Source of the DNA: an uncultured Poribacteria bacterium
GTDB taxonomy: Bacteria > Poribacteria > WGA-4E > WGA-3G
DNA: 64,000 bases
Assembly: GCA_951828515.1 (NCBI GenBank)
Contig: OX639992.1
Location: forward strand, 2,396,217-2,460,216
Direction: 5' to 3'
In this document: positions 10,415-25,473 of the stretch, one piece after another
Position numbering within the stretch: position 1 is the first letter of the stretch
How the letters are laid out: each line of letters begins with the position of its first letter
The notes under the pieces: model-generated
The model's input: the letters and a program-made list of their open reading frames with translations, nothing else
Database searches by the model: none
Told to the model about the DNA's origin: nothing
Position numbers and translations under genes: made by a program

Positions 10415-10855
10415 TCAGTTGATATTTAGGAGTTTGAGCACTGAAACAACTATGATTGCGGTTACCAAAATTGTTAAAAAAGTAAAAAAGAACCGCTTCC
10501 TAACTGAATGAGATTCCGATTTTATGTGGGAGACTTGTCGTATAATGTTCTCTTTTACACTTTTAGATATCTGCACGCCACCGAGCACTTTTTGAATAAG
10601 GAGTATCTCATCCTCTTGTAAAAGTTTATGCGCTCGCTGAAACTTACTTGTAATTGCCTTCTCTGACACACCTAAGTATCTCCCAATACCCTCGGTTGGC
10701 ACTTTGCCGAGATAATAGAGTGTTATGACCGTTCGCTCACCCTCTGGAAGTTTTTTCAACAGTTCCCTCACGCGTTGATAGCGATACTTGTCTGCATTTG
10801 TCTCACACCGCTCCGATATATCATGAGTGTAGGAAGATCGTCCTTTCTTTCCCAT
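10415..10855 (-). CDS. Truncated membrane-anchored sigma-factor relative (region 4 plus one helix)
   Basis: The 146 residues contain a sigma region 4 (LLKKLPEGERTVITLYYLG, then YLGVSEKAITSKFQRAHKLL), a linker and a C-terminal membrane helix (FFFTFLTILVTAIIVVSVL). It aligns with residues about 115-245 of the sigma-propeller protein at 13776. It lacks the sigma region 2 needed to bind the -10 element and core polymerase, and it lacks the extracellular part. It may be a decayed copy or a membrane-held competitor. The frame is clean and follows the Kelch gene on the same strand. Confidence 0.6.
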   Translation of the reverse strand: MGKKGRSSYTHDISERCETNADKYRYQRVRELLKKLPEGERTVITLYYLGKVPTEGIGRYLGVSEKAITSKFQRAHKLLQEDEILLIQKVLGGVQISKSVKENIIRQVSHIKSESHSVRKRFFFTFLTILVTAIIVVSVLKLLNIN

Positions 10856-10977
10856 GGGTGTATCCCCCAGTGATTACATCGCTGATTCGTTCCATTGGGA
10901 CCAATTAATCCAAAGCCGATTTACGCTGAATGCAGTCATCCAGCAAACTGATAAGGTTCTAAAAGCATCTACCTGCT

Positions 10978-12096
10978 TTAGCGAGGGAGTATGTCAACTT
11001 TTTTAATCATTCCCCACGTCTCAAGGCGTTTGTCGATCGGATCAACACTTTGGTGGAACTCTCCTGTGTCGTAGACCTCAACAGTTGCAAATGGGGTGTC
11101 ATTATGGGCGGGTCCGTCAATGATATAGATATTCCCATTTATGACTTCAGCCTTATGCCCAGCTTTGGCAACAGGCATGTCGGGTTTCTGGGTCCAACGA
11201 CCAGTTCGAGGATGGTAGATTTCGATTGTTTTAAAATCTTTCGTATCCTGTCCCTGATTCCGAAAATAACCGCCCATCACATAAATTTTTCCGTTGATGA
11301 CACTTGCAGTATGAACCGATTTGGGAGTAGGCATATCACCTATTTCGCGCCAACGATTTTTTTCAGGGTTATAGACTTCCATACTGGAAAGAAAGGGACC
11401 CGGATCATTTATAATCAGGGGCAATCCGGTTCCTCCCATGACGTAGATCTTTCCGTCGACAACACTGACTGCGGCACCAGCACGCGCATGGTTCATGTTT
11501 TTGGCTTTTGCCCATGTGTCAGTAGCTGGGTCATACATTTCGACGGTGTCTAAACGAAACGATTTTATCTTGGTTGATGTCCCGCCGATTGCGTAGATTT
11601 TCCCATCGACGACGCATGTGCTGGTGTTTCTGGGTGTAGGCATGTCGGCTTTCTGCGTCCATGTGTCAGTATCCGGATCATACATTTCGACGGTTGGAAT
11701 ATCTTCAGCCTTCCACCTTGGGATCCTTCTAATCTGATCATTTACAAGGACATCAAACTCAAATCGATTCAGAATTGTTCCACCCATCGCGTAGATTTTT
11801 CCATCCACAACCGAGGTAGTTGCGTCAGTGCGAGCCGTTGGCATATCAGCCTTTCGTTCCCACGTATCGGTTTTTGGGTCGTACACTTCGACGGTTGAAA
11901 GGGACAAGTCCCCGAGTCCGTCAACATAGCCCCCGATTGCGAATATCTTTCCGTTGACAACACACGTGGTAAAGCCGGATCGGAGCGTTGGCATGTTTGC
12001 TTTCTGCTCCCAAGCTCCGTCCGCTGCGAGATTGAGAACCTTGATTACTGATAGTATCCATAGCATCAGGACACCTAAAGTCAAACGCATTTTCAT
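10978..12096 (-). CDS. Secreted Kelch-repeat beta-propeller protein
   Basis: A 372-residue protein with an N-terminal signal (LTLGVLMLWILSVIKVLNLAADG) and about six Kelch repeats, each carrying a version of VDGKIYAIGG followed by VEMYDPATDTW. These form one propeller, usually a protein- or sugar-binding surface. Its end, DKRLETWGMIKK, is a weaker form of the C-terminal tag seen in other secreted proteins here. It lies 104 bases behind the Cys-rich peptide at 12201, the same pairing seen twice for TolB-like propellers, so both may be expressed from the ECF-type promoter at 12555-12598. Confidence 0.85.
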   Translation of the reverse strand: MKMRLTLGVLMLWILSVIKVLNLAADGAWEQKANMPTLRSGFTTCVVNGKIFAIGGYVDGLGDLSLSTVEVYDPKTDTWERKADMPTARTDATTSVVDGKIYAMGGTILNRFEFDVLVNDQIRRIPRWKAEDIPTVEMYDPDTDTWTQKADMPTPRNTSTCVVDGKIYAIGGTSTKIKSFRLDTVEMYDPATDTWAKAKNMNHARAGAAVSVVDGKIYVMGGTGLPLIINDPGPFLSSMEVYNPEKNRWREIGDMPTPKSVHTASVINGKIYVMGGYFRNQGQDTKDFKTIEIYHPRTGRWTQKPDMPVAKAGHKAEVINGNIYIIDGPAHNDTPFATVEVYDTGEFHQSVDPIDKRLETWGMIKKVDILPR

Positions 12097-12200
12097 GACT
12101 TACCCCCATTCACTCTTAATGGACATTCACATCTTAAATTTTCTACGAGGTTGCTATTCAGGAGACCATATCCGAAGACCTTAAAAAAGATCCTGGCTCG

Positions 12201-12467
12201 TTAGATACATTCAGCAACACCAAAGCTAGTGAAACACATCTCATCATGATTGCAATGATCCGCTACTCCTGTGAAAGGATCAACACATATATGAGGATTC
12301 GCCCAATGAGCTTCTGTGGCAATGGGTGCGAGTAGTTGCGATGCGAAGATTGCTCCTGTCGCGATAGTTCCAGCGACTAAGGCATTCTTATGCGCCACGT
12401 GACCCTCTTCTTTGACGAAGAAATCACTCAGACGCTGTTTTGTCAGTTGTGCCACATGCGTTTGCAT
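12201..12467 (-). CDS. Cys-rich membrane-leader peptide A
   Basis: This 88-residue product has a strong GGAGGTGA site before its ATG. It has three parts: a basic N-terminus (KQRLSDFFVKEEGHVAHK), a Gly/Ala-rich hydrophobic helix (ALVAGTIATGAIFASQLLAP), and a tail with four cysteines and several histidines (CVDPFTG..HCNHDEMC..ECI). The same plan recurs in the peptides at 18207 and 20312, with shared EEGxVxxK and AQ/SQxxxP positions. It could be a modified-peptide precursor or a disulfide-rich exported peptide. Upstream is an ECF-type box; downstream is a secreted Kelch propeller. Confidence 0.7.
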   Translation of the reverse strand: MQTHVAQLTKQRLSDFFVKEEGHVAHKNALVAGTIATGAIFASQLLAPIATEAHWANPHICVDPFTGVADHCNHDEMCFTSFGVAECI

Positions 12468-12554
12468 TCGATTTCACCTCCTTCCTTTTTAGGAGAAAAA
12501 GGTGATGTTTTAACCCATGAGGTGAAAAAACATTTTAAACATGGGTATACAACA

Positions 12555-12598
12555 CCCTTTTAAAATTAAGGACACAGTTTTAGGAGGGATAGGGTGCA
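12555..12598 (-). promoter_or_regulatory. ECF-type promoter box A
   Basis: On the minus strand: TGCACCC (12592-12598), 15 bases, TGTGTC (12571-12576), then CTTAATTTTAAAAGGG. Nearly identical boxes lie at 16761, 24714 and 25474. The layout matches an ECF-sigma -35/-10 pair. It is about 100 bases upstream of peptide A. Confidence 0.65.
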
Positions 12599-12743
12599 GA
12601 ATGTGAGAAAATTGAGAAGAATCTGTATCTACACTAAAGACAAAAACCCGCCTAAAATTTCGGCGAGTTTATTCTCAGGTACACGGCGTTACAGGTCTAC
12701 CAGTTTAATCGAAACCTGAACTTAACTTGGGTATCCAACGCTT

Positions 12744-12773
12744 AAAATTAAAAAGGCGAACCTTATGTTCGCC
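12744..12773 (-). terminator. Intrinsic terminator of the 13033 gene
   Basis: On the minus strand GGCGAAC-ATAAG-GTTCGCC is followed by TTTTTAATTTT. It lies downstream of the stop at 13033. Confidence 0.7.
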
Positions 12774-12807
12774 CCTTTTCGTATTTAAGATGTCACCACT
12801 AACAATT

Positions 12808-12924
12808 TATAGTAAAACCCATAATTAAGTTTACACTCTGTAATGCGGCGAGGTTAGGAAACCTCGCCAGCAATGTGGGTTTTGGGTTTTCAAGAGCGTG
12901 CAAGTATTTTCGGGCTTTACTATA
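12808..12924. repeat. MITE-A copy 1
   Basis: A 117-base element with inverted ends TATAGTAAA and TTTACTATA and an inner GGCGAGGTTAGGAAACCTCG hairpin. Five more copies occur in the window. It has no coding capacity. Confidence 0.8.
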
Positions 12925-13032
12925 ATGTTACCAGCACATTTTCAACTTCAATATGCTTGTTGATAAAAAATAAAGAAAAAATGAAAAAACGCCCAAAACG
13001 TGGTTTCCGGAGGACACTGGGTCGATTTGTTG

Positions 13033-13632
13033 TTAAGTTCTACCTGATCGGCGTAAATCCACGGCGAGTCCCTCAAGTTGAGATGCGACTTCCTGAATGT
13101 TAACGTCTACACCTTGACGTACTAATTGGTAACACAAGTCCTCCCACCTTTGACGTTGTGTCCATGCAATCTTACAGATTTCGGTCCAAATGTCAGATCC
13201 AAGAGGGAGCGAAAGGGGTTGAATTTCATCAAAATGGATACCCACTAAAATGCTAAGGGAATCCATAATTGATTTACCCCCGTTAAGCACAGCGTTAACA
13301 ACTTTCCCACATTCTTTAGCCGTCAGACCTTTCGTCTCAACAATCGCAATAGCCAATATCCATTTATCTTCTTCCTGCTTGAGTCGAGTGATTTGATAGG
13401 CTTGCTCAATCCCGATATATCCTTCATCAACCTTCCACAGAATGCCTACCGGAAGTTGGGAGATACGATGTCGGACGATCCAAAACTTATCCGATTTACC
13501 CATTTCTCGTGTGATGGATTGATAAGTTCCCAATGCCTGATATAAAACATCTACCGCTTTGGCGACCTCAGAGGGTTTCTTCTGATCATGGGCCCCTACA
13601 ATTTTTCTCGCAGTTTCTATATCTATCTCCAT
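13033..13632 (-). CDS. Helical protein with a ParB-like central segment
   Basis: A 199-residue protein with a well-placed GAGGAGG site and its own terminator, so it is a real gene. Residues about 78-118 (YIGIEQAYQITRL, then IVETKGLTAKECGKVV) resemble the helical part of ParB/KorB proteins that follows their helix-turn-helix. No ParB N-terminal CTPase motif is present, and no parA is nearby. The rest is unrecognised. A DNA-binding or regulatory role is a guess. Confidence 0.55.
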   Translation of the reverse strand: MEIDIETARKIVGAHDQKKPSEVAKAVDVLYQALGTYQSITREMGKSDKFWIVRHRISQLPVGILWKVDEGYIGIEQAYQITRLKQEEDKWILAIAIVETKGLTAKECGKVVNAVLNGGKSIMDSLSILVGIHFDEIQPLSLPLGSDIWTEICKIAWTQRQRWEDLCYQLVRQGVDVNIQEVASQLEGLAVDLRRSGRT

Positions 13633-13775
13633 CTCAATCGCCTCCTCAGATCATTGTCCAACTTCCTTTGACGCTTACGATAAATGGTTACATAATTCAG
13701 CCGAAATTGCATGTTATCAGCACACCCAAAGGCTTTATGCCTTAACATTCTTCCCGTCAAACCCATAACCAATAT

Positions 13776-16679
13776 CTACTTTTCTTCCCCAAGCGATATC
13801 TGAAATATCCCGTGATCTTCAGTGGCACTGTAGAGTCTGTCATTAATTATACCAAGAGAGACAATTTCACCTGGCACTTCTGAAGCAAATTGTTTCCAGT
13901 ACCCATCAGTATCCATACCATAAACCCCCATATCTCCAGCACCGTAAACTCTGGGACCCGGCACAGCGAAATGATTCATAGCAAATTGGTTTATGACAAT
14001 AGGTGTCCCTGATCTATCCATTATTACGCGCCAATGTTCTCCAGTTTCTGAAACTAAGACCCCTGCGTCTGTCGCGACGTAAACCGTTGAACCCACAAAA
14101 ACGATCTCTTTGAACGAAGTAAAGCGGAGCGGTAGATTGGGTGTAACATCCCTCCAATTACTTCCTGCGTCAAGCGATTGAAAGAGTCGACCATCCCGTT
14201 TCCCAACGTAGAGAATCTCTCCCGAAACTGCTAACTTGAATCCGCCGAGGGAATCGCCATCGGATGGCTTACCAAAGTCTACCAAACCTGTGTCCTTCCA
14301 CGCTGAATCACCGAGTCTCCATTTAAAAAGTCTACGATTGTATTCCGCATAGAACACATCACCGCTAATGGCAAACGCTTCGACTCTCGCCCATTCCTCA
14401 ATAGAAGGCAATGCAGCCTCTGTCAATCGATCTTGACCCGTTATCTCACTATCAATAGCAGGAACCCCTTGAACTGGAATGAGTGTATTGCTTTCTCCAG
14501 ATAAACGGAAAATGTACAAGTGATTTTTTTCAGGGGAAATAAAATAGAGCATCCCACCAGCAATCACAAACTTTGCGTAAAGATTGGCATAAATATAAGC
14601 CCTATCATCTTCCACTGATTCACGCGAAATTTCTTCAGTACCAATACGGACTTTTTTCCAAGAAACGCCTTCGTTGGTCGATTGATATACCTCATAGGCA
14701 GTATATGTGTATAAATTGTTGTTGAATACAACCAAATCGTTTAGCCTTGTTCCCAGCACTCCATCCATAAATATATGCCATGATTTGCCACCATCCGTTG
14801 TGCGATGAATACCGAAAACACCAGCTTTGTAAAACGTTTCATCGTTCACCGCCGCAGCGGGTAAATTATTGAGCATATATAAATTCGTGTCAATTCCAAG
14901 ATTTGTCCAAGTGTCCCCACTATCCAGTGAATATAAATTCGTGGCACCGAGTGCTAAGAGGGTCTTATCAGTGGATAAAAGCTTTACACCCGATGGGAGT
15001 GCTGATGGACGATATTTAGGTGTTATTTCAGTCCACGAGACTCCTAAGTCAGCTGATCGGAAAATCCTTCCTGAACTCGGTTCACTCCTTTGCAATATTG
15101 AACTTGCATCCGTTGGCGTTAATTCAACCAGATCAGGTCCCATTCCAACGTAGAGATTACTTTTAAGCACTGCCAAGGAATAGACCGCTTTTGATGTGCC
15201 TATTGACAGTTTTCTCCAAATATCTGAATCCAGACGATAGAAACCCCGGTTGGTGCCGGTAAACACTGTCTTTCGAACAGCGGTGATCGCTGAAATCCTT
15301 TCACCTCCTAAGCCATCGTTAAGTGATTCCCATTCAATTCCACCGTCTATGGTTCGGAAAATCCCCTCATCCCTAAGCGCGAGATACATTGTCATACCCG
15401 CTTCTGAACCCCGCGCATCCCGTTCATCTGTGGTGATAAACCCAATGGCATCTCCCTTTGGCCGAACGCAAAACGCACGCCATGTCTCACCTTTATCCAC
15501 TGACGCAAATATCTCATTCGTAGAGACAATATAGAGCGTCCCACGATTCTCCACCATCGGCATTAGGGATTTATCTATCGGAATACCCGTGTTCAGATAC
15601 CTCCATGTGGTCGCATCTGTCTCTAATTTGTACATACCTCTTGTTGAAATAGCAAAGGTAGTCCCGTCAGAAACAGTGTAAATATCGTGCACCTTACCAC
15701 CAGGAGGACCATCTGTTTGTCCCCACTGCGTAATAGAAAACTTGCGTAGATCCTCCTCGGAGTATGTCCTTAACGTCGCCTCGGAAAACTCCATCCCAGC
15801 ACCTACGTTTTTTTCAGGTACAGCAGACCGACCAAACTGGTTCCGTATAGACGGTTTTGACATAACATCAAGAACGATAGGGGCATCAACAATTTCAATC
15901 GTAGGTTCAGATCTTGCCTCGAAACTATACGGCTTTTGAAAGCGGGCAAAATATTGATGACTTGCACCCAGCAGTAACATAACCAAAATTGTCGCCGCGC
16001 CGAAAGATACCCACGGCACCAACGGTTTGCCAGCCGGTGGAACTGTTGGGTTAATATCGGCGATTTGCCGCATAATTCGCGCCGTTAAATCGGCAGGTAA
16101 TTGCACGCTTCCGAGCACTTCGCTCACCAAGGATTCTGATGCTTGTAGACGCTCTCGTCCGCGGCGAAGCCGACTTTTTATCGTGTTTACCGATACACCT
16201 AAGAAGTTGCCTATCTCCTTCACCGTCATCTCGCCAAGATAGTAGAGTGTCACGACTGTCCGCTCACTCTCTGGCAGCCTTTCTAAAAGTTTTTTGACAA
16301 TCTCAGAGTTCTGCTCAGCCGCGTCTGCCTCGCGTTCGAGCGTTACGTAATGTGTATAAGAGGATTCATTTATCTCTTCCAAGGGTGTCTCTTCCAGCGA
16401 CTGCCTCGCCGGTTTATGCCTCTGAATCCAATTAAGTGTCAGTCGATTCGCAATCACATACAACCATCCTGTAAAACACTTAGGATCTTTCAAGGTCCCA
16501 AGTTTTTTGTATACTTGGAGAAAAACATCTTGGGTCAGTTCTTCCGCATAGTGAAAATCTCCTATCTTTCGCCAGATAAGCGCATGAACCCCTTTATGAT
16601 GCCTTTCGACCAAAGTGTTGAATGCCGAATCATCACCTGATAATATCCTGTGTATCAATTTAACATCGTCTTCTAACAT
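13776..16679 (-). CDS. ECF sigma factor fused to a membrane helix and an extracytoplasmic beta-propeller
   Basis: This 967-residue protein starts with an ECF sigma factor: region 2 at about 10-85 (ELTQDVFLQVYKKL, FTGWLYVIANRLTLNW) and region 4 at about 130-185 (LPESERTVVTLYYLGEMT, FLGVSVNTIKSRLRRGRERL). A single helix follows near 222-245 (VSFGAATILVMLLLGA). About 700 residues of repeats come next with BNR/YCF48-like Asp-boxes (SVDKGETWRAF, TIDGGIEWESL, STNEGVSWKKV, SLDAGSNWRDV). The expected topology is sigma inside and propeller outside. It therefore looks like a one-protein transmembrane transcription switch, activated by ligand or by proteolysis. An ECF-type box directly upstream suggests it controls itself. 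No separate anti-sigma gene is adjacent. Confidence 0.85.
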   Translation of the reverse strand: MLEDDVKLIHRILSGDDSAFNTLVERHHKGVHALIWRKIGDFHYAEELTQDVFLQVYKKLGTLKDPKCFTGWLYVIANRLTLNWIQRHKPARQSLEETPLEEINESSYTHYVTLEREADAAEQNSEIVKKLLERLPESERTVVTLYYLGEMTVKEIGNFLGVSVNTIKSRLRRGRERLQASESLVSEVLGSVQLPADLTARIMRQIADINPTVPPAGKPLVPWVSFGAATILVMLLLGASHQYFARFQKPYSFEARSEPTIEIVDAPIVLDVMSKPSIRNQFGRSAVPEKNVGAGMEFSEATLRTYSEEDLRKFSITQWGQTDGPPGGKVHDIYTVSDGTTFAISTRGMYKLETDATTWRYLNTGIPIDKSLMPMVENRGTLYIVSTNEIFASVDKGETWRAFCVRPKGDAIGFITTDERDARGSEAGMTMYLALRDEGIFRTIDGGIEWESLNDGLGGERISAITAVRKTVFTGTNRGFYRLDSDIWRKLSIGTSKAVYSLAVLKSNLYVGMGPDLVELTPTDASSILQRSEPSSGRIFRSADLGVSWTEITPKYRPSALPSGVKLLSTDKTLLALGATNLYSLDSGDTWTNLGIDTNLYMLNNLPAAAVNDETFYKAGVFGIHRTTDGGKSWHIFMDGVLGTRLNDLVVFNNNLYTYTAYEVYQSTNEGVSWKKVRIGTEEISRESVEDDRAYIYANLYAKFVIAGGMLYFISPEKNHLYIFRLSGESNTLIPVQGVPAIDSEITGQDRLTEAALPSIEEWARVEAFAISGDVFYAEYNRRLFKWRLGDSAWKDTGLVDFGKPSDGDSLGGFKLAVSGEILYVGKRDGRLFQSLDAGSNWRDVTPNLPLRFTSFKEIVFVGSTVYVATDAGVLVSETGEHWRVIMDRSGTPIVINQFAMNHFAVPGPRVYGAGDMGVYGMDTDGYWKQFASEVPGEIVSLGIINDRLYSATEDHGIFQISLGEEK

Positions 16680-16760
16680 CCGTAACCTCCAAAACGAATA
16701 AAAAATCTTATATTATTCCAATTTATAAAGGTGCTAAATATAAAAAAATGCTTTACAACA

Positions 16761-16805
16761 TCCCTTTTAAAATTAAAGACACAACTTTTCGGAGGCAAGG
16801 GTGCA
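16761..16805 (-). promoter_or_regulatory. ECF-type promoter box B (sigma-propeller gene)
   Basis: TGCACCC (16799-16805), 15 bases, TGTGTC (16778-16783), then TTTAATTTTAAAAGGGA, all on the minus strand. It is about 100 bases before the ATG of the sigma-propeller gene, consistent with autoregulation. Confidence 0.7.
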
Positions 16806-16807
16806 TT

Positions 16808-16851
16808 ATAAAAAATGAAAAGCGAATTTGCAATAGAAATTGCAAATTCGC
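16808..16851 (-). terminator. Terminator of the first TolB-like gene
   Basis: A perfect 11-base stem (GCGAATTTGCA at 16822-16832 with its complement at 16841-16851) is followed on the minus strand by TTTTCATTTTTT. It lies 57 bases past the stop at 16908 and just before box B. Confidence 0.65.
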
Positions 16852-16907
16852 CTGAAATTTTATGGCGTTTCCATTGTGGAAAACTCAGAGTGGCTATGCC
16901 TGAAAAC

Positions 16908-17888
16908 CTATTCTCGTTTCAGTTTTCCCCATATTGTCGTGAGCAATTGGGGTTGTAGTGAAACCGGCAACGCAAACGCTGGATCAAACCAATCCGCCGG
17001 ACTATTCCAAATACCAATATGAGTGAGTTGTTCTGACGGACCTCCATTCAAAGTGATTTTGAAGATTTGCTTCGCTTCGTGTTTCCATCTTGCATATAGG
17101 AGTTCATCCCCTCGTGGGGACCAAACCGGATCCGTCGCTCGCGGACCGGCTTCATCAACGATTTGTGTAAGTCCTGTGCCATCACGATTCACAACATAGA
17201 TTGTCTCCCTATCCTCGAAGGCAACAAGCGGCAGTTTATGTTGCCAAGAAAACGCAAGTTTGTCGCCTTCGGGAGACCACGCCGGAATAGATCCCATCCA
17301 CGTGGGTATCGCCTTGGGTGGGAAAAACACTTTCTGTTTTCGTGTGCGCACATTGAGGATATGCATTTCCCAACGGTCCTGTCCTGCTTTGACGGTATAA
17401 GCTATTTCCATTCCATCAGGAGACCATGCAGGACCGCTGCCAATCGCCAAGCGTTCTTCTTTTTTGCTGTCTATTGAAGCGATATAAATAACCCTTTTGC
17501 CTTGCTCGCGTCGCGTATAAGCGATCTGTTTGCTATCCGGCGACCATGCTGGAGCCTCCCTATGGGCAGATTTTCCAAACACCCGTCGCACGTTTTTCCC
17601 ATCCGGATCCATTAGATACAGGTCGTACCCTTTGTCCCGATCTGAGGCGAAAAGAATCTGCTCTCCCGTGGGGGACCAGGCACCATAGATGTCATCTGCT
17701 GGATGGTTCGTTATGTTAATCTGATCACTTCCATCTATATTCATCAGATAGAGGTCTCGATTTCCCTCACTGCTTGCTCCAAACAGGATTTTCGCTGTCT
17801 TGGGTACTTTTGCTAACACAGGACAGATTCTTGCTCCTAACAGGGCGCAGGTAAAAACGAAAATAAGGACTGGCATTGACGATTTCAT
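16908..17888 (-). CDS. Secreted TolB-like beta-propeller 1
   Basis: The start at 17888 is chosen for its GGAGGG site and signal peptide (MPVLIFVFTCALLG, cleavage near LAK). The 326 residues carry PD40/TolB-type repeats, with recurrent W-S-P-x-G/D motifs and Asp-rich turns (YLMNIDGSDQINITNHP, ILFASDRD, PAWSPDSKQIAYTR). It is not TolB of the Tol-Pal system, as no Tol neighbours or TolB N-domain exist. It ends in LLTTIWGKLKRE, the shared C-terminal tag. It lies downstream of peptide B (18207). It is one of five paralogues in 7.5 kb. Confidence 0.85.
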   Translation of the reverse strand: MKSSMPVLIFVFTCALLGARICPVLAKVPKTAKILFGASSEGNRDLYLMNIDGSDQINITNHPADDIYGAWSPTGEQILFASDRDKGYDLYLMDPDGKNVRRVFGKSAHREAPAWSPDSKQIAYTRREQGKRVIYIASIDSKKEERLAIGSGPAWSPDGMEIAYTVKAGQDRWEMHILNVRTRKQKVFFPPKAIPTWMGSIPAWSPEGDKLAFSWQHKLPLVAFEDRETIYVVNRDGTGLTQIVDEAGPRATDPVWSPRGDELLYARWKHEAKQIFKITLNGGPSEQLTHIGIWNSPADWFDPAFALPVSLQPQLLTTIWGKLKRE

Positions 17889-18206
17889 AAAAATCCCTCC
17901 GAAACTTAGGATAGAGGCGTTGATCCGATAATATACCATTAAATGTCGGATGCGTTGATATACTCAGAGCCACATTCCTACTTTTTTTCAATTTCTATTC
18001 CACCCGATGTCTGACTGAATCACCTTCTATGCCTATACTTCAAATCTACTTTTCTCAATGTTCAAAAGCACATTAGAGGCAGAAATGTCAGGGCGCATTG
18101 TGGTAAAAGCCATCACGCCCCGACTTTTCCTGAGACTGCCTCAGTTTGAAATACAAGCCCTATTCTATAATCCTAAGGAACTTGCTTGAGATTCATGCAT
18201 TGATGT

Positions 18207-18425
18207 TTAACCACCAACACAGGTTCCTACACTGCATTTGTGAGGATGATGGTGGCATTGCCAGTCATGTTCACATTCCCACCCATTGTGGGTGGGAGCG
18301 ACGACTGCCTGGGCAAATAAAACACTGCCCGTGGCTACACCAACCGTGAGCGGAGCCTTGACACTTACCTTTCCGTCCTCAGATGCGATGAAGTCTCGGA
18401 TTTTACCGCGAAGGTTACTTTTCAT
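18207..18425 (-). CDS. Cys-rich membrane-leader peptide B
   Basis: A 72-residue product with an AAGGAGA site. N-terminus: LRGKIRDFIASEDGKVSVK. Hydrophobic helix: TVGVATGSVLFAQAVVAP. Tail: four cysteines spaced C-x5-C-x6-C-x4-C with a run of histidines (CHHHPHKCSVGTC). It is closely related to peptide C (20312) and less closely to peptide A (12201). The tail would be outside if the helix is a signal or anchor. The gene is followed by TolB-like propeller 1 and preceded by two strong hairpins. Confidence 0.75.
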   Translation of the reverse strand: MKSNLRGKIRDFIASEDGKVSVKAPLTVGVATGSVLFAQAVVAPTHNGWECEHDWQCHHHPHKCSVGTCVGG

Positions 18426-18444
18426 CTTAGTTTATCTCCTTTCT

Positions 18445-18500
18445 GCCGGGACTTCTGTTCCGGCAAGATGGTATTCCCAAACAGTGTTGGGAATACCATC
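18445..18500. repeat. Double hairpin upstream of peptide B
   Basis: GCCGG/CCGGC (18445-18464) is followed by a perfect 14-base stem with a 6-base loop (18467-18500, GATGGTATTCCCAA arms). Related CCCAACC/GGTTGGG hairpins lie at 20573-20640 and 22966-23060. It may be a leader structure or a terminator-like barrier. Confidence 0.5.
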
Positions 18501-18618
18501 TCCAGGACGAATACTATCGCTGTAGGAGTGAAGCCCTCCTCCTGGACATGCTTTCTAATGTCTTTTCAAAAGGTTCGTCATCCTTGTTGGTTATATGTTT
18601 ATAGAAGCTGCATCAGTT

Positions 18619-19106
18619 TCAGATAAAAAGGACCTTGGCAATGAATGCAGTCAAAACTCCCGGACCGAAACCGAGATCACAGAAATGAGACTTCTCTTTG
18701 AAAGCGTCGAGGTGTTTAGCGATGAACGCTTTTCGCTCCAAAGCAGGCTGAAAAGCGAGATAGTTCAGGTGTTCGCTGATTGGGTAATATTTCGTTTCGT
18801 AAAGTTTCTCTTTTACTGCCTCGAAATCTCTATCTGCTGTTAGCTGATTCGGAATCTCCAGTGCAAAAAGTTGTTCAACAGTTATATCACCAGAATAAAG
18901 AATGTCACTGATGATTTCCTCAGTGTGTGACCAACTCGTTTCGGGACGTTGAATCAAGTCTTCTGCCTGCTCTAAAATGGAAGACAACAGGTACTGAATC
19001 GTCTGATCAAAACGCGCGCGATGATATTCCACAGCGTGCGGATATACGCGTGTGTGTGTGTCTGAAGCCGTGCCTCAAACGCAGTTTCAAATTCGTGATA
19101 GTACAT
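18619..19106 (-). pseudogene. Frameshifted fragment of a class I methyltransferase
   Basis: Starting at an ATG (complement 19104-19106), the frame MYYHEFETAFEARLQTHT enters a (CA)n run at 19051-19062. It then continues two bases out of step as EYHRARFDQTIQYLL, through FCDLGFGPGVLTAF, the SAM-binding motif I. It ends about 5 residues later, so the catalytic half is missing. The frameshift in a dinucleotide run could be slippage; the lost 3' end makes it a remnant in any case. It is stranded inside the TolB array. Confidence 0.55.
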
Positions 19107-19221
19107 TAATGGTTTCCTCGGTTTATCGGGATACAGTTGATTAGTGTTGTTTGAGCTTACTCCATAAGGTTGTTATTTTTTCTGCCCTCGGTGAGACAGG
19201 AAAGAAAGGTTCTGGCACCAC

Positions 19222-20190
19222 CTATTTCCTTTTCATTTCCCCCCATACTGTGCTCAACAACTGTGGTTGTGGTGAAACGGGCAACGCATACGTCGGGTCA
19301 AACCAATCTCCGAGATAATTCACTCCAATACGTGTCAGTTGTTCCCGCTGCTTCCCGTCCACCCCAATTTTAAAGATCTGGCGTTGCTCGTGAATATAAA
19401 GGAGTGCATCCCCTTGTGGCGACCAAATAGGGGAGGTTGCCTTTGGACCTGCTTTGTTAACAAGCTGCACAAGGTCGGTTCCATCGCGATTCACGATGTA
19501 GATAGTTTGTGTGTTGAGAAAATCCTTCAGGGGCACCTGATGGAGCCAGGAAAAAGCGAGTTTGTCCCCCTTTGGAGACCAAACTACACGCCCTTCTATC
19601 CACGAGGGTGGTGCCTTAGGCGGAAAGATAACCTTTTGTTTTCGTGTACCGAGGCTAAGTATACTGATGTGTTTCTGTTCGCGCCCGCCACTGACAAATG
19701 CAATCTCCGTTCCATCTGGGGACCAAGTAGGACAGCTTCCAATCGCTACTCGTTCCTCTTGTTTACCATCAATCGTACCGATATAAATAAACGTCCCGCT
19801 AGGCTCTCGCCGTCTATACGCAATCTGTTTCCCATCAGGCGACCACGTTGGTTGGGATCTATCCGTCGACTTTGCAAATACTGCTTGCACATTGGTACCA
19901 TCGGCATCCATTAGATAGATATCCCAATGTAGCTGTCCCTGGTCCCGGTCTGATGCAAAAAGAATCTGTTCACCCGTTGGGGACCAGACAGGTGAGGTAT
20001 CCCTGGCGGGGTGGTTGGTTATTTTTACCTGCTGAGTAGCATCGGGATTCATCAAGTAGATGTCCCGCTTGTCATCACGGCCTGATGCAAACACGATTTT
20101 TGGCGTTTCGGGTGCTTTTGCCCAAATGTGACAAATGCTTGAACACACAAGGATCAGGCTGAGAAAAGCACGCATTAATGCAAATTTCAT
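19222..20190 (-). CDS. Secreted TolB-like beta-propeller 2
   Basis: The start at 20190 has a GGAGG site and signal peptide (MRAFLSLILVCSSICHIWAKA). It has 322 residues with the same repeat series as its paralogues (YLMNPDATQQVKITNHP, SPVWSPTGEQILFASDRD, PTWSPDGKQIAYRRRE) and the tag LLSTVWGEMKRK. It follows peptide C by about 120 bases on the same strand. Its end is nearly identical to that of propeller 4 (PVSPQPQLLSTVWGEMKRK), so these two are sister copies or have been converted. Confidence 0.85.
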   Translation of the reverse strand: MKFALMRAFLSLILVCSSICHIWAKAPETPKIVFASGRDDKRDIYLMNPDATQQVKITNHPARDTSPVWSPTGEQILFASDRDQGQLHWDIYLMDADGTNVQAVFAKSTDRSQPTWSPDGKQIAYRRREPSGTFIYIGTIDGKQEERVAIGSCPTWSPDGTEIAFVSGGREQKHISILSLGTRKQKVIFPPKAPPSWIEGRVVWSPKGDKLAFSWLHQVPLKDFLNTQTIYIVNRDGTDLVQLVNKAGPKATSPIWSPQGDALLYIHEQRQIFKIGVDGKQREQLTRIGVNYLGDWFDPTYALPVSPQPQLLSTVWGEMKRK

Positions 20191-20311
20191 AACACATTCC
20201 TCCGACAATGAGGTAGTAGATACCGTCTCTCCCTTCAAAAGGAAACGTGTCCTTAGGCTACAGAGGGTGGCGACAAAAGCCGCCATACCCTCTGCAAGCA
20301 GGAAGATCGCC

Positions 20312-20533
20312 TTAAGGTACGCAAGTACCTATACTGCAAACCTGATGATCTAGACAATCGTCATCATCTTCACATTCCCAATGGTTAGCTGGGGCGGATG
20401 TCGTTCCAACGATAGCCTGTGCGAGTAGAACGCTGCCCACCGCCGCACCGAGGGCCAACGGGGATTTTATCCCCACTTTACCTTCTTCGGAGTGGACGAA
20501 TTCGCGGATTTTACCGCGGAGATTTGTTTTCAT
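20312..20533 (-). CDS. Cys-rich membrane-leader peptide C
   Basis: A 73-residue product with a GAGGTG site before the ATG. It aligns with peptide B throughout: LRGKIREFVHSEEGKVGIK, then LALGAAVGSVLLAQAIVG, then an acidic tail with four cysteines, C-x5-C-x5-C-x4-C (CEDDDDC..VCSIGTC). Conservation of the leader and the last six residues (CSxGTC) with a variable middle resembles a precursor family with a diversified core. It lies upstream of propeller 2. No dedicated protease or transporter is adjacent. Confidence 0.75.
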   Translation of the reverse strand: MKTNLRGKIREFVHSEEGKVGIKSPLALGAAVGSVLLAQAIVGTTSAPANHWECEDDDDCLDHQVCSIGTCVP

Positions 20534-20572
20534 TCAAGTTCACCTCCTCTCTTTCTACCGGAAATCTCACTT

Positions 20573-20640
20573 CGGCGGGATTCGCTTCCCAACCGTGGTT
20601 GGGAAACCTATCTTCAACGAGAAGTAGCTATTTACAAAGG
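20573..20640. repeat. Leader hairpin upstream of peptide C
   Basis: CGGCGGGAT, then a TTCCCAACC/GGTTGGGAA hairpin (20586-20605), then GAGAAGTAGCTATTTACAA. The block is shared with 22966-23060 and in part with 18445-18500. Confidence 0.5.
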
Positions 20641-20733: not shown

Positions 20734-21741
20734 CTATTCCCGTTTGAGTTCTCCCCATGTTGTTGTGAGTAGTTCAGGTTGTGGTGAAACCGACAACGCA
20801 TAAGCTGGGTCAAACCAATCTCCGCCAAAATTCCAATCAATATGTGTCAGCTGAGTTTGAACGCCGCTGCTTATATCAAGTTTGAAAATCTGTAGAGAAC
20901 CCTTAATTTTCTGTGTATAAAGGATTTCTTTGCCATTCGGTGATAACTCAGGATTCTCTGCCATTGGACCTGCCTCATCAACAAGTTGTTCGAGACCGGT
21001 ACCATCGCGGTTGGCGATATAGATTGTTCGTTTATCAGTCCATCCTTCTGGTAACCCGTCTTCTTGCTTAAAATCTGGCGGCAATGGGTTGTTATTCCAA
21101 GAGAAGGCGAGTTTGTCTGCCAGAGCAGACCAAGATGGCATCATTTGACCCCCTAATTCTTTTCTCGGCAGGATCCGTTTTTGCGCACCTGTACGAACGT
21201 TGATGAGTGTCATTCGACCATCTTCAAGGGGAGTATAAGCTATTTCTGCACCGTCGGGCGACCATGCTGGATGCAAGCCATTCGCCAATAAATTCTCTTC
21301 TTGTTCGCCTGAGTTCGTAATGTGGATAGCGTATATATCCTTATCCCAGTTGATGTGCATGTAAGCGAGTCGCTTACCATCTGGCGACCATGTCGGATAA
21401 TCCCGATAAGTGAAGTTTCTCTTGAGTTCATTCTTGAAGGCGCGTCGGATATTGGAACCATCAGGGTTCATCAGATATAGGTCTCGCTTACCGTCTCGAT
21501 CGGAGACGAAAAGAATCTGCTCACCGGTAGGTGACCAAACGGCGTTTAGATCGTTTGCGGGATGTTGTGTGAGTCTCATCTGTTTGCTACCATCCGGGTT
21601 CATGATGTATACTTCGCGATTACCATCTCGTGCGGAGGTAAACAGAATTTTCGGGGTCGTCGGTGCTTTTGCGAAAAGCGAAGCAACGTTCGCACATAGT
21701 AGTGTCACACTCAGCATGTAAAAGACAAATATACGTTTCAT
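20734..21741 (-). CDS. Secreted TolB-like beta-propeller 3
   Basis: A 335-residue protein with signal peptide (VFYMLSVTLLCANVASLFAKA) and TolB-type repeats (YIMNPDGSKQMRLTQHP, AVWSPTGEQILFVSDRDG, PTWSPDGKRLAYM). It ends in LLTTTWGELKRE. It is the most diverged of the five, with an insertion near residue 200 (PPDFKQEDGLPEGW). No peptide gene precedes it. It presumably binds a ligand at the cell surface; no enzyme motif is seen. Confidence 0.85.
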   Translation of the reverse strand: MKRIFVFYMLSVTLLCANVASLFAKAPTTPKILFTSARDGNREVYIMNPDGSKQMRLTQHPANDLNAVWSPTGEQILFVSDRDGKRDLYLMNPDGSNIRRAFKNELKRNFTYRDYPTWSPDGKRLAYMHINWDKDIYAIHITNSGEQEENLLANGLHPAWSPDGAEIAYTPLEDGRMTLINVRTGAQKRILPRKELGGQMMPSWSALADKLAFSWNNNPLPPDFKQEDGLPEGWTDKRTIYIANRDGTGLEQLVDEAGPMAENPELSPNGKEILYTQKIKGSLQIFKLDISSGVQTQLTHIDWNFGGDWFDPAYALSVSPQPELLTTTWGELKRE

Positions 21742-21899
21742 CTGTATTTCTCCGATAATTGCTCAAAGACGTAATATACACAGCACGTGTGAGCGTGTGG
21801 CATAAGAACACACCCTTCTCAGGAAATGCTTGGAAATCAATTCAACTCATCTAAAGTGTAGAATTCTATCAAAGCGTTTCAAAGTTGTTATGTCTAAAC

Positions 21900-22877
21900 C
21901 TATTTCCTTTTCATTTCCCCCCAGACTGTGCTCAATAACTGCGGTTGAGGTGAAACTGGTAATGCGAATGCTGGATCAAACCAATCCCCCAGATAATTCT
22001 GTCCGATATGAGTGAGTTGCTCGGGTTCCTCGCCTCCCAACGCTATCTTGAATATTTGTAGATTATTATTTTTATCAGCCTGTTTATAGAGAATTGAATC
22101 ACCATGCGGGGACCACACGACCGAAGTTGCTCTCGGTCCAGTTTCATCAACAATCTGTGTGAGTCCTATTCCATCGCGATTTATCGTATAAATCGTCTCA
22201 GTCTCAATGAAATCTTTTAGGGGCACTCGATGCAGCCAAGCAAAAGCAAGTTTGTCTCCTGTTGGAGACCATGCCAGACTCCCACTCATATATGACGGTA
22301 TTGCCCTGAGTGGGAAAAGAATTCTCTGTTTGAGTGTCTCAAGGTTGAATATACTTATTTGCATGCTTTTCGGCCAACCGACGAGAAAAGCTATCTCGGT
22401 GCCATCGGGAGACCACGCAGGAGAACTCCCAACAGATATTCGCTCTTCATTTTCACCATCAATTGTGGCAGTATAGTTGACCCATTGATCATGCACCGTG
22501 CGGGTATACGCAATCTGTTTACCATCGGGAGACCACGTCGGACTTGCTCTTTTTGCCTCCTTTCCAAAGACCCGCTGCACATTAGATCCGTCTGGATCCA
22601 TGAGATATAAGTCCCAAAAACCATCTCGGTCCGAAACAAAAAGTATGTGTTCACCTGTTGGCGACCAGACGGGTGTAATGTCATCTGCGCGATGATATGT
22701 TATTCTGACCTGCTCACTTCCATCCGGATTCATAAGGTAAATATCACGATTTCCTTCACGCGCCGCCCAAAATGTGATTTTTGGAGTTGTCAGGATTTCT
22801 GCCAAAACCGGGCGAATTCTCACGTGCAAGGACGCCAGGCTTAGGAGAAAAAAAAGAAGTAGAGGATACCGTCCCAT
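21900..22877 (-). CDS. Secreted TolB-like beta-propeller 4
   Basis: A 325-residue protein starting behind GGGAGGG, with signal peptide (LLLFFLLSLASLHVRIRPVLAE). The repeats match the series (YLMNPDGSEQVRITYH, PVWSPTGEHILFVSDRDG, PTWSPDGKQIAYTRT) and the end is LLSTVWGEMKRK. Upstream lies a remnant leader hairpin (22966-23060) but no peptide gene, as though the peptide was lost from this unit. Confidence 0.85.
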   Translation of the reverse strand: MGRYPLLLFFLLSLASLHVRIRPVLAEILTTPKITFWAAREGNRDIYLMNPDGSEQVRITYHRADDITPVWSPTGEHILFVSDRDGFWDLYLMDPDGSNVQRVFGKEAKRASPTWSPDGKQIAYTRTVHDQWVNYTATIDGENEERISVGSSPAWSPDGTEIAFLVGWPKSMQISIFNLETLKQRILFPLRAIPSYMSGSLAWSPTGDKLAFAWLHRVPLKDFIETETIYTINRDGIGLTQIVDETGPRATSVVWSPHGDSILYKQADKNNNLQIFKIALGGEEPEQLTHIGQNYLGDWFDPAFALPVSPQPQLLSTVWGEMKRK

Positions 22878-22965
22878 AATAACCCTCCCAAGAATTGGTG
22901 ACAGATATTCTTTTTCTCAACAAAACGAGTCATAAAAATTAGAAATAAAACTACACAAATACGTG

Positions 22966-23425: not shown

Positions 23426-24421
23426 TTATTCCCGTTTGAGTTCTCCCCAGGTTGTGGTGAGTAACTCTGGTTGCGGTGAAACAGGCAACGCATACGCAGG
23501 ATCAAACCAGTCTTTGGGTGTATTCCATATCCCAATATCCGTGAGTTGCTCTGGTTGTTCTGCCCCCAAGACGATTTTGAAGATTTGTAAAGACCTTCTA
23601 GCTGCTTCACTATCTTGGGCATAGAGGAGGGTATCTCCCTGCGGCGACCAAACAGGCGAGGTAACCTCTGGACCCGCCTCATCAACAATCTGTGTAAGCC
23701 CAGTCCCATCCCGATTCACCGTATAGATCGTCTCTGTTTTAAGGAAGTCAACAAATGGGACGCGATGAAGCCAGGAAAAAGCGAGTTTATCACCTCTCGG
23801 AGACCACCTCGGAGCCCGGAGCCATGAAGGTGTCGCCTTAGGGGGAAAGAAGGCCTTTTGCTTTCGCGTCCGCACATTGAGAATATTTATTTCCCAGCGT
23901 TTCGCCCCCGTTTTAACAACAAAGGCGATTTCGGTGCCATCGGGAGACCACGCCGGAGTACCTCCGATAGCGACTCGCTCCTCATTTTTTCCATCGCTTG
24001 TAGCGATGTAGATGTACCCTACACCAGCATCAAAGCGTGTGTAAGCGATCTGTGTGCCATCAGGCGACCACGCCGGATGCCGTCTTTCCTCCGATTTTCC
24101 GAAAACAGGTCGCACATTTTGACCATTAGGATCCATCAGATAGAGATCCCAGCTACCCGGAAACCGATCTCTGTCAGAGGCAAAAAGAATCTGCTCTCCT
24201 GTGGGGGACCAGGCACCAGAAATGTCATCTGCTCGATGGTTCGTTATGTTAATCTGCGCACTTCCATCTATATTCATTAGATAAAGCTCTCGATTTCCTT
24301 CTCGATTTGCCCCAAACACAATTTTGGCAGTATTCGGTGGCTTGGCAAAAACAACACAAACGCTCACACCCAAGAGCACAAGGCTAAAAAAGCAAAAAAG
24401 AATTGGCATTGTTCGTCTCAT
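23426..24421 (-). CDS. Secreted TolB-like beta-propeller 5
   Basis: The start at 24421 has a GGAGGG site and a signal peptide (MPILFCFFSLVLLGVSVCVVFAKP). It has 331 residues, with repeats close to those of propeller 1 (YLMNIDGSAQINITNH, GAWSPTGEQILFASDRD, PAWSPDGTQIAYTR) and the tag LLTTTWGELKRE. Propellers 1 and 5 frame the array and share ILNVRTRKQK, suggesting the array grew from such a copy. Confidence 0.85.
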   Translation of the reverse strand: MRRTMPILFCFFSLVLLGVSVCVVFAKPPNTAKIVFGANREGNRELYLMNIDGSAQINITNHRADDISGAWSPTGEQILFASDRDRFPGSWDLYLMDPNGQNVRPVFGKSEERRHPAWSPDGTQIAYTRFDAGVGYIYIATSDGKNEERVAIGGTPAWSPDGTEIAFVVKTGAKRWEINILNVRTRKQKAFFPPKATPSWLRAPRWSPRGDKLAFSWLHRVPFVDFLKTETIYTVNRDGTGLTQIVDEAGPEVTSPVWSPQGDTLLYAQDSEAARRSLQIFKIVLGAEQPEQLTDIGIWNTPKDWFDPAYALPVSPQPELLTTTWGELKRE

Positions 24422-24491
24422 CGAAAATCCCTCCTTGATCGGCAAGTGCCGCAGCACCGTTGTTAAAATTTATATCTCTTGCTCTCTACAA

Positions 24492-24689
24492 TCAATATAA
24501 CTTTTCTTGGCTACAGCAGAGATTTTCTGCACTTCTCTGCTCTTCTGCCAGTTTCAAGATGTCAACCATCACGGCAGAAATCTCTATGACCCGTGCTTTC
24601 TCGATATCTGCCGCATAAAGGACACCATCTTCCTCAAAGAGGTAAAGTCGGTGTAAAACTCTTGGGAAATCAAACACGTTTTCCTCCAA
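24492..24689 (-). pseudogene. N-terminal remnant resembling a radical-SAM peptide maturase
   Basis: The 65 residues (HRLYLFEEDGVLYAADIEKA, then VIEISAVMVDILKLAEEQRS) resemble the PqqD-like segment that opens SPASM-type peptide maturases, where a hydrophobic 'own-peptide binding' strand precedes the radical-SAM barrel. The frame stops before any CxxxCxxC cluster. An ECF-type box sits directly upstream, so it was once controlled like the peptide gene. The assignment rests on short similarity. Confidence 0.4.
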
Positions 24690-24713
24690 TCTTTTTGTTG
24701 TTTATGATTGCGC

Positions 24714-24838: not shown

Positions 24839-25356
24839 CTATTCCTTTTCCCAGCGAAACTTCGTTTCTCTGATACCCCCGAGACTCTGAAGTTTTTCGC
24901 TAACCCTCATCGTTTGTTCAATCAGGAGATCCTCGCTCCCGATAGATTCAACATTGAGCCGCAACAAGGGTTCCGTGTTCGATTCTCGGAGATTAAAGCG
25001 CCAATTACCATGTCCACGGCCATTAGCAGCAAGTGGACGGAAACCTGTGTGAAATCTGACCGACAAACCGTCAACAGGCATTTCAATACAAGGATGGTTC
25101 CCCAAAGCGTATATTTCTTGTTGGACGACCCCCATAGCATTTCGCTTATGACGCTCGGTTTCAAAGGAAAAGTTGATTTCACCTGGTGTAGATGACCCGA
25201 CGCAAGGATAACCTCTTCAACGTTCACATCCCTTAGGAGTTGGATCTGCCACTCCAAAACCGTTTTACCACTAATCTCAAGCAGAATCTTAGGAACAGTT
25301 TTCGTAGTATTGCCCAACCGCGTCGCGAGTCCGCCGCATAAAATGATCGCTTGCAT
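24839..25356 (-). pseudogene. Chimeric remnant: sugar nucleotidyltransferase head, phosphomannomutase-like tail
   Basis: From the ATG at 25356 the frame reads MQAIILCGGLATRLGN, then VPKILLEISGK and LASGHLHQ, the start of a sugar-phosphate nucleotidyltransferase. A different frame downstream carries PVDGLSVRF and NWRFNLRESNTEPLLRLNVE, the C-terminal phosphate-binding domain of a phosphomannomutase or phosphoglucomutase. The middle of both enzymes is missing, so a deletion fused two neighbouring sugar-nucleotide genes. An ECF-type box lies upstream. Confidence 0.6.
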
Positions 25357-25473
25357 CCTTATTTTCCTTTCAAAGTCTGTTCTATGCATTCGAGCGCAAG
25401 GGACGCATATTTGCAACATCCCTTTCGCTCATAGTGCCATCCCTTTTAAACGTGATACGTAAGATCCTCTCAT

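Follow-up and report, generated by a model that had tools for sequence, protein, structure and literature searches.

Three small Cys-rich peptides encoded in the genome of an uncultured Poribacteria bacterium are each followed by a secreted beta-propeller, which raises the question of what system such pairs belong to. Candidatus Poribacteria are sponge-associated and form a major part of sponge microbiomes; to our knowledge, the phylum has no cultured member. We analyzed the whole 64-kb stretch of DNA around these genes (the window) together with related genomes, and no description of a comparable system was found in the literature. With about even confidence, we propose that the peptides are precursors of a multicopy, RiPP-like, Sec-exported system, in which glycosylation by glycosyltransferases carrying a RiPP recognition element (RRE), disulfide formation, and leader removal would precede action with a cognate propeller.

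A family of Cys-rich precursor peptides

The peptide frames were confirmed where they had been predicted, with the Cys spacings originally given and, like all window features described here, on the minus strand. The peptide at 12201..12467 (88 aa; open reading frame and family alignment; profile score, 79 bits) carries the Kelch-linked MQTHVAQLTKQ leader subtype and a four-Cys tail with looser spacing than the other two. Those have the LRGK leader subtype and tails of the form C-x5-C-x6-C-x4-C (18207..18425; 72 aa; 117 bits) and C-x5-C-x5-C-x4-C (20312..20533; 73 aa; 109 bits). All three belong to one family, of which a search of the 5.85-Mb genome with one peptide recovered about 17 intact copies in several islands. 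Profile searches matched the family in 40 of 85 Candidatus Poribacteria genomes, with up to about 20 different paralogous peptide-propeller pairs per genome, and a scan of named genomes with a closer sequence subset returned 19 loci, all from Candidatus Poribacteria. No relative of the peptides was found in the PDB by sequence, and the Pfam and NCBIfam candidates (DUF4342, EB module, DUF7107, Magi 5, HdeA) gave only subthreshold, chance-like matches.

As in RiPPs generally, the precursors are small and combine a conserved leader with a core that varies. The pN/pS ratio was 0.18 in the leader, indicating purifying selection at the protein level, and 0.58 in the more loosely constrained tail, which, together with the spread over 40 genomes, bears out the original prediction of an undescribed multicopy system in which the leader is conserved and the Cys-rich tail varies. 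An E-x-G motif is present in all 144 distinct full-length precursors. Among LRGK members (leader consensus MKxNLRGKIREFxxSEEGKVGVKxPL), the four Cys residues are retained in 97-100%. Beyond Cys, only Gly/Thr near the last Cys shows conservation in the tails, and no position stands out clearly enough to be named as the site of glycosylation. The tail was modeled with a pLDDT of about 83-88; the best PDB matches of the model were cystine-knot miniproteins, with probabilities of up to 0.99 but without statistical significance (E >0.1). A cystine knot has three interlocked disulfides, and many of the tails carry no more than four Cys residues.

The peptides had been described as having a membrane leader with a hydrophobic helix. 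A hydrophobic stretch is indeed present, but in LRGK members its end is marked by an A-x-A at a conserved position (Ala at -1 in 92% and at -3 in 78%), and for this reason it resembles a Sec signal that is cleaved off more than a helix that stays in the membrane. The conserved signal-peptidase-like site favors secretion of the peptide.

RRE-glycosyltransferases and the A24 peptidase in intact clusters

Intact clusters elsewhere encode pairs of GT4 glycosyltransferases with an RRE as the N-terminus. A profile of these N-termini matched the RRE domain of the SCIFF maturase CteB (5WGG/5WHY; E 9e-14), and 21 of 23 members matched the N-terminus of ScfB-related maturases. The AlphaFold model (pLDDT 85) superposes on the CteB RRE with a TM score of 0.81 and 35% identity, followed by lasso-peptide B1/RRE proteins that had been solved with their leader peptides. 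The remainder of the protein is a PF00534 (GT4) domain. The E-x7-E catalytic motif is preserved in the consensus of GTA and GTC (EETFGLxxLExMACG), whereas GTB lacks the first Glu. Judged by these domains, the RRE-fused GT4 glycosyltransferases appear to be the maturases of the system and are predicted to read the leader.

This assignment is in line with their distribution. Of 51 peptide regions spanning 10 kb or more, 44 contained an RRE-glycosyltransferase, and across 85 genomes 33 had both peptide and enzyme, 7 only the peptide, 3 only the glycosyltransferase, and 42 neither (Fisher p 3e-13). The enzyme was absent from genomes G034, G043, G045, and G046. As G034, G043, and G046 nevertheless keep a cluster of peptide, propeller, A24 peptidase, redox, and ECF genes, glycosylation cannot be a universal step.

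Other neighbors in intact clusters are an A24 aspartyl peptidase, a UshA/multihaem/DsbA-like redox protein, a methyltransferase, nucleotide-sugar genes, and an ECF sigma-propeller fusion. Sugar supply is represented by a nucleotidyltransferase in the clusters and by phosphomannomutase genes in 27 of 75 regions. In the window, the ECF sigma factor (13776..16679; TIGR02937, E 1.7e-27) is joined by a membrane helix to a beta-propeller that is large and BNR-like. Among the 51 peptide regions of 10 kb or more, 36 contain an ECF gene of this kind, and this recurrent neighbor is a candidate regulator. The A24 protein scored 26.0 bits against PF01478, just under the 26.5-bit cutoff, and both catalytic-type Asp residues (in D-x4-K-I-x-N and GD-x-K) were conserved in 45 aligned sequences. 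Over the 85 genomes, peptide and A24 gene occurred together in 35, the peptide alone in 5, the A24 gene alone in 3, and neither in 42 (p 9e-15).

No partner is linked to the peptide as tightly as the A24 peptidase, which remains in the glycosyltransferase-free clusters. Together with the invariant E-x-G and a leader context (F-x-x-S-E-E-G) that we take, by eye, to resemble that of Flp prepilins, this is what would be expected of a pilin-like surface peptide. Such a peptide would be cut after the Gly of E-x-G, as prepilin peptidases do on Flp-type pilins, and would retain its helix for anchoring or polymerization while displaying a Cys-rich tail, possibly capped by the propeller. The details of the precursors fit this less well, as the residue after the Gly is charged, position +5 is Lys rather than the Glu of pilins, and the conserved A-x-A comes after the helix. 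The sole secretion ATPase of the genome lies far from the islands. Membership in the Flp/Fap family itself (PF04964) is ruled out, with no match among the window peptides or in 30 related genomes (a Caulobacter control was positive). We consider a pilin-like peptide unlikely. Searches of the open-access literature turned up no paper that places a prepilin peptidase in a RiPP pathway.

Pairing of peptides with secreted propellers

For each window peptide, a secreted propeller was confirmed to come next on the same strand, Kelch once and PD40/TolB-like twice, as originally described. The partner of peptide 12201 is a Kelch propeller with seven Kelch_1 repeats (10978..12096; PF01344, E 2.4e-75). 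The PD40/TolB-like partners of peptides 18207 and 20312 lie at 16908..17939 (PF07676, E 2.6e-26; C-terminus LLTTIWGKLKRE) and 19222..20286 (PF07676, E 1.3e-29), respectively. Three further PD40/TolB-like propellers of the island (20734..21741, 21900..22877, and 23426..24457; open reading frames and protein matches) have no peptide of their own, and no decayed peptide was found upstream of them down to E = 10.

The pairing recurs in many genomes, which was the outcome that the original prediction called for. Among 149 peptides with a readable, non-edge neighbor, 99 have a secreted propeller as the next gene on their strand (median gap, 124 bp). Leader subtype and propeller type do not cross: 80 LRGK peptides are paired with TolB and 19 MQTH peptides with Kelch propellers. 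About one-third of the peptides have no propeller directly after them, and many propellers have no peptide. Tail similarity correlated with propeller similarity (Mantel r = 0.67, p = 0.0005), also when shuffling was done only within genomes, and the deepest branches keep the peptide-then-propeller order with TolB or BNR propellers. By these comparisons, peptide and propeller are apparently a cassette that is inherited together, which fits a cargo-plus-partner relationship.

The same pairing could be a by-product of tandem duplication, with functionally unrelated peptide and propeller copied as one block behind a GTB tail. Directly upstream of 30 peptides lies a GTB-tail fragment (the full-length gene precedes 34), and a correlation between tail and propeller similarity is expected from coinheritance. 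Two observations make this decidedly unlikely. Each leader subtype has retained a propeller family of its own, independently of the other and without crossing, and in distant genomes the partner of the peptide is a TolB or a BNR propeller; passive hitchhiking does not predict such a replacement of the propeller class.

It is very improbable that peptide and propeller are instead two subunits of a periplasmic redox enzyme resembling the methylamine or quinohaemoprotein amine dehydrogenases, in which a small cross-linked subunit joins a beta-propeller subunit, with the multihaem protein as electron acceptor. A small Cys-rich subunit adjoining a propeller and the DsbA-like and multihaem protein of the cluster would suit such an enzyme, and the RRE domains weakly match the N-terminus of the quinohaemoprotein maturase (5 of 23; best E 0.02). 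The tails, however, are highly variable and lack the conserved catalytic Trp/Asp pair for a quinone cofactor, three unrelated propeller classes are used, a genome may hold some 20 different pairs, and the islands lack a radical SAM gene.

This last point also bears on the suggestion that a maturase remnant near the peptides was radical SAM. The remnants in the window are those of a methyltransferase, two glycosyltransferases, and a nucleotidyltransferase, and no radical SAM gene was found in intact clusters. Although the RRE is of the SCIFF/ScfB maturase type, it is carried by glycosyltransferases, and since all 17 radical SAM genes of the genome lie away from the peptide islands, a radical SAM-matured system would require a distant enzyme acting in trans and has next to no probability.

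A decayed island and a 5' leader RNA

By its gene content, the window evidently holds a decayed satellite island, in which peptides and propellers are intact, the glycosyltransferases, methyltransferase, and nucleotidyltransferase persist as fragments, and intact maturation genes are located elsewhere in the genome. Protein matches identified relics of the first RRE-glycosyltransferase (GTA; 24495..24701) and of the C-terminal tail of the second (GTB; 18425..18565). The latter appears to mark the duplicated unit of GTB tail, peptide, and propeller. A truncated class I methyltransferase (18622..19074; matching L023:18304-19200; intact copies, 298 aa) and a truncated sugar-1-phosphate nucleotidyltransferase (24922..25428; domain and protein match; intact size, about 225 aa) complete the remnants.

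Sequence and covariation point to a 5' leader RNA with two hairpins upstream of both LRGK peptide genes of the window. At gene 20312 it spans 20534..20612, with the second hairpin just upstream of the Shine-Dalgarno sequence, and at gene 18207 the same two hairpins span 18426..18500 and overlap the GTB-tail relic. Covariation was found in 37 homologous leaders, and none of 500 shuffles reached the observed values. No known Rfam element is present within the 64-kb window.

Comparison with known RiPP systems

RRE-glycosyltransferase fusions were noted by RRE-Finder (PMC7470986) and in a 2025 structure-based RRE survey (PMC12710340), where they were taken to point to a RiPP class not yet described. 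The fusion in the passages of the survey on this architecture is to PF00535 (GT2), whereas the Poribacteria enzymes carry PF00534 (GT4). As far as the accounts of the fusions in both sources go, they name the fusion only; the precursor family, propeller, A24 peptidase, and redox protein are described here. An automatically assigned "RRE-containing" cluster in a Poribacteria MAG, given by type and length only (PMC12795557), is possibly the present system.

Glycocins (sublancin, glycocin F, and thermoglycocin; PMC12457901) share with the Poribacteria system a ribosomal Cys-rich core, a glycosyltransferase, a thiol-disulfide oxidoreductase, and, as predicted for the latter, a disulfide-rich product. 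They differ in that the Poribacteria glycosyltransferase is an RRE-bearing GT4 rather than a SunS-like GT2 enzyme, that export appears to follow the Sec route, and that the peptide gene is accompanied by one for a propeller. In glycocins, a C39 peptidase-transporter cleaves off the leader (PMC12457901); C39 (PF03412) had no match in this genome, with positive control genomes, and no double-Gly was found at the leader end of the precursors. On these grounds, membership in the glycocins is ruled out.

The SCIFF/ranthipeptide system (ScfA, CteB) has the same type of RRE. CteB is a radical SAM thioether synthase, whereas the Poribacteria RRE sits on glycosyltransferases in clusters without a radical SAM gene. 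The leader regions of several members weakly match HxsA3 of the His-Xaa-Ser system (NF038309; E 0.0002 to 0.1). This similarity recurs but is a lead at most: all matches are far under the 65-bit curated cutoff, the His-Xaa-Ser repeat is missing, and no radical SAM gene is nearby.

Proposed pathway and its meaning

The RiPP-like, Sec-exported system that we favor would operate as follows. The conserved leader would be bound by the RRE at the N-terminus of the GT4 pair, in which GTA or GTC would be the catalytic member, while GTB, which has lost the first motif Glu, may only present the substrate. The variable tail would receive a sugar from the nucleotide-sugar genes of the clusters, and the methyltransferase may modify the sugar or the peptide. 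The precursor would then enter the Sec route, an unusual export path for a RiPP modified in the cytoplasm. Signal peptidase I could remove the leader at A-x-A, the A24 aspartyl peptidase of the cluster could cut it at the invariant E-x-G, or both could act. The tail of 20-45 residues would be oxidized to two or three disulfides in a knottin-like mini-fold, probably via the UshA/multihaem/DsbA-like protein, and the mature peptide would work with the adjacently encoded propeller. This scheme builds on the peptide family, the RRE and GT4 assignments, the peptidase Asp pair, co-occurrence, pairing, and coinheritance, as read from the sequences; glycosylation of the tail, sugar identity, the site of cleavage, the connectivity of the disulfides, and contact between peptide and propeller are its predicted elements.

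RRE-glycosyltransferase fusions, until now orphan architectures, thereby gain precursors, in a family of over 140 sequences, together with a conserved neighborhood and a testable product. A diversifying Cys-rich mini-peptide in a fixed pair with a secreted propeller is unusual among RiPPs. The arrangement hints at a role as partner, as carrier, or in recognition. More tentatively, and with somewhat more doubt than belief, we suggest a new RiPP class, in which RRE-fused GT4 enzymes would make Sec-exported, glycosylated, disulfide-stapled miniproteins, each cognately paired with a dedicated secreted beta-propeller. If true, this would give sponge-associated bacteria a diversified ligand/receptor-like repertoire of up to about 20 peptides per genome.

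Peptide family and its pairing with propellers

The three peptide frames of the original prediction (12201-12467, 18207-18425, and 20312-20533, − strand) are all present, and in each case the next gene on that strand encodes a secreted propeller (Kelch at 10978-12096; PD40/TolB-like at 16908-17939 and 19222-20286). The window covers positions 2396217 to 2460216 of a 5.85-Mb single-contig genome, in which one peptide used as query detected ~17 intact and a few broken copies, located in islands at 566-587 kb, 699 kb, 1850 kb, 2408-2417 kb (the window), 3889 kb, and 3907-3916 kb. With a profile built from 18 members, the family was detected in 40/85 phylum genomes and 7/22 genera, with a maximum of 21 matches per genome. 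Named genomes were also scanned with an alignment of six peptides, and all 19 loci returned belonged to Candidatus Poribacteria.

For neighborhood analysis, 80 stretches around the best matches and those of the window's genome were merged into 75 regions (1.16 Mb). The next gene was scored for 155 peptides, 6 of which lay at a contig edge and were set aside. A same-strand propeller followed within 700 bp in 99 of the other 149 (median gap, 124 bp), extending the predicted pairing beyond the window. As the 76 PD40 repeat matches in the genome are confined to a few dozen open reading frames (ORFs), this adjacency is far from chance. The "LRGK" leader subtype was paired with TolB-like propellers (80 cases) and the "MQTH" subtype with Kelch propellers (19 cases), with no crossed pairs, and tail similarity correlated with propeller similarity (r = 0.67; P = 0.0005, within-genome label shuffling included). 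Among class-level relatives, G004 has the peptide-propeller order three times running with TolB propellers, and G003 repeats it with TolB or BNR/VPS10-type propellers. Tail fragments of GTB, a cluster glycosyltransferase, were found upstream of 30 peptides, which shows the duplicating unit to be GTB tail, peptide, and propeller.

Precursor anatomy and 5' leader RNA

The typical leader of the 144 distinct full-length members reads MKxNLRGKIREFxxSEEGKVGVKxPLTLGVATGSVLLAQAIVGTPxAxA and is followed by a tail of 20 to 45 residues with mostly four or six cysteines. Members of the LRGK subtype all have S15, E16, and G18; conservation is 95 to 98% at K23, P25, and L26, and the presumed cleavage site has Ala at −1 (92%) and −3 (78%). 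The four cysteine columns of LRGK tails are 97 to 100% conserved, and pN/pS is 0.58 in the tail versus 0.18 in the leader. A structure model of a window peptide was poor for the leader and good for the tail (pLDDT, 83 to 88), with a small beta hairpin. Its closest structures were squash trypsin inhibitors and other cystine-knot miniproteins, with no significant E value.

The 75 bases upstream of LRGK peptide genes (in the window, 20534-20612 and 18426-18500, − strand; alignment A6) fold into two hairpins. Across 37 diverse leader RNAs, 88.7% of cells pair and both sides change in 10/13 pairs; none of 500 shuffles attained the observed values, and slid controls were far lower. No Rfam family matched in the window. 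The element is a candidate for a new structured RNA that may control translation, and it overlaps the GTB coding end where GTB is directly upstream.

Cluster genes and RRE-glycosyltransferases

The usual gene order is GTA-GTB-(peptide-propeller)n-methyltransferase-A24-redox protein-(peptide-propeller)n-nucleotidyltransferase-ECF. Domain searches assigned GTA, GTB, and GTC to GT4 glycosyltransferases (PF00534), and identified a class I methyltransferase and a sugar-1-phosphate nucleotidyltransferase. For A24, the match was to type IV leader peptidases, with a score at the Pfam threshold, and the redox protein combines a UshA-like metallophosphatase, cytochrome c554-type hemes, and a DsbA-like domain (NF041198). 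Among the 51 peptide regions of at least 10 kb, an RRE-glycosyltransferase was present in 44, a propeller in 40, A24 in 39, the redox protein in 37, and the ECF sigma factor protein in 36. Phosphomannomutase genes occur in 27/75 regions, adjoining the nucleotidyltransferase wherever the latter is also labeled.

Several further genes were observed. A conserved gene of ~102 amino acids with an antibiotic biosynthesis monooxygenase fold (PF03992, at threshold) lies 21 to 117 bp 3' of A24 in 8 regions (e.g., L023:1485-1793, L166:5769-6080, L167:10056-10367, and L169:9685-9993). Kelch-type clusters (L082, L113, L114, and others) differ in their glycosyltransferase pair, which consists of GTC and a divergent enzyme, and in having a second subtype of the redox protein; they seem to represent a parallel lineage of this system. 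Genes resembling those of the heptose pathway (HddA-like kinase and GmhA-like isomerase) lie near some clusters (L174:6507-7604 and L026:2814-3377); the donor sugar may be a heptose rather than mannose.

The first ~83 residues of the cluster glycosyltransferases form a RiPP recognition element (RRE), whose profile matched, among PDB entries, the RRE portion of CteB (E = 9e-14). N termini of ScfB and SCIFF maturases were matched by 21/23 and 17/23 members, respectively, and PqqD by 14/23. The modeled domain (three strands and three helices; pLDDT, 85) superposes on CteB (TM, 0.81) as well as on B1 RRE proteins of lasso-peptide systems whose structures include the leader peptide. The RRE-glycosyltransferases are the putative maturases of the peptide system. 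The motif EETFG-x5-E is kept in GTA and GTC but not in GTB, which may therefore be a noncatalytic partner.

Across the 85 genomes, peptide and RRE-glycosyltransferases co-occurred in 33, with 7 having only the peptide, 3 only the enzyme, and 42 neither (P = 3e-13); the corresponding counts for cluster-type A24 were 35, 5, 3, and 42 (P = 9e-15), both uncorrected for shared ancestry. RRE-glycosyltransferases were absent from the peptide-bearing genomes G034, G043, G045, and G046. A clear peptide-propeller-A24-redox-ECF cluster is present in G034, G043, and G046, and propeller, A24, redox, and ECF genes stand together in G045. As these glycosyltransferase-free genomes keep the other components, cleavage and oxidation may be the core of the system and glycosylation an addition.

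The window island

The cluster copy in the window lies on the − strand and is decayed. Peptides, propellers, and the ECF-propeller gene are intact, the methyltransferase and nucleotidyltransferase are truncated, glycosyltransferases persist as fragments only, and A24 and redox genes were absent from the island in the neighborhood survey. Maturation of the window peptides would have to occur in trans from other islands of the same genome. The product of the intact gene at 13776-16679 is a fusion in which an ECF sigma factor is joined to a transmembrane helix plus a large BNR-like propeller, and it could act as a one-protein sensor-regulator; this architecture recurs beside most peptide clusters. 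The Kelch part likewise looks like a decayed cluster, with a truncated LamG-like secreted protein (10046-10249) and a truncated ECF sigma factor (10415-10873). Intact LamG-like relatives adjoin A24 and glycosyltransferase genes at L023:1855-2784 and L169:6112-7077.

Elsewhere in the window, two TnpB-like genes (IS200/IS605 type; 804-1898 and 57203-58444) were assigned by eye from translations. Many secreted window proteins with unrelated domains share a short C-terminal motif (LTTTWGKLKS / LLTTTWGELKRE), including those at 7391-7990, 16908-17939, 19222-20286, 20734-24457, 42723-43397, 43446-44294, and 44362-45216. It looks like a phylum-specific sorting tag, and no NCBIfam match accounted for it in four tagged window proteins.

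Proposed mechanism and relation to known systems

No earlier description of the peptide-propeller system was found in the open-access literature. Two papers name RRE-glycosyltransferase fusions (2020; PMC7470986) and an RRE fused to a GT2 glycosyltransferase (2025; PMC12710340) as orphan architectures; in contrast to the latter, the Poribacteria cluster enzymes belong to GT4. An automatically called "RRE-containing" cluster in a Poribacteria MAG has been given without description (PMC12795557). Glycocins have the general idea in common with the Poribacteria system; export by a C39 transporter is a glycocin feature (PMC12457901), and no such transporter was found in the window's genome.

The main rival explanation is a pilin-like surface peptide processed by A24, the peptidase that co-occurs with the family. 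Most of the evidence fits a Sec-exported RiPP-like system. Its machinery and pairing are evident in the genes; the chemistry, cleavage, and peptide-propeller contact would proceed as follows. The RRE would bind the peptide leader, the GT4 enzymes would add sugar to the peptide, and the redox protein would help to form its disulfides. The leader would then be removed, and the peptide would act together with its propeller.
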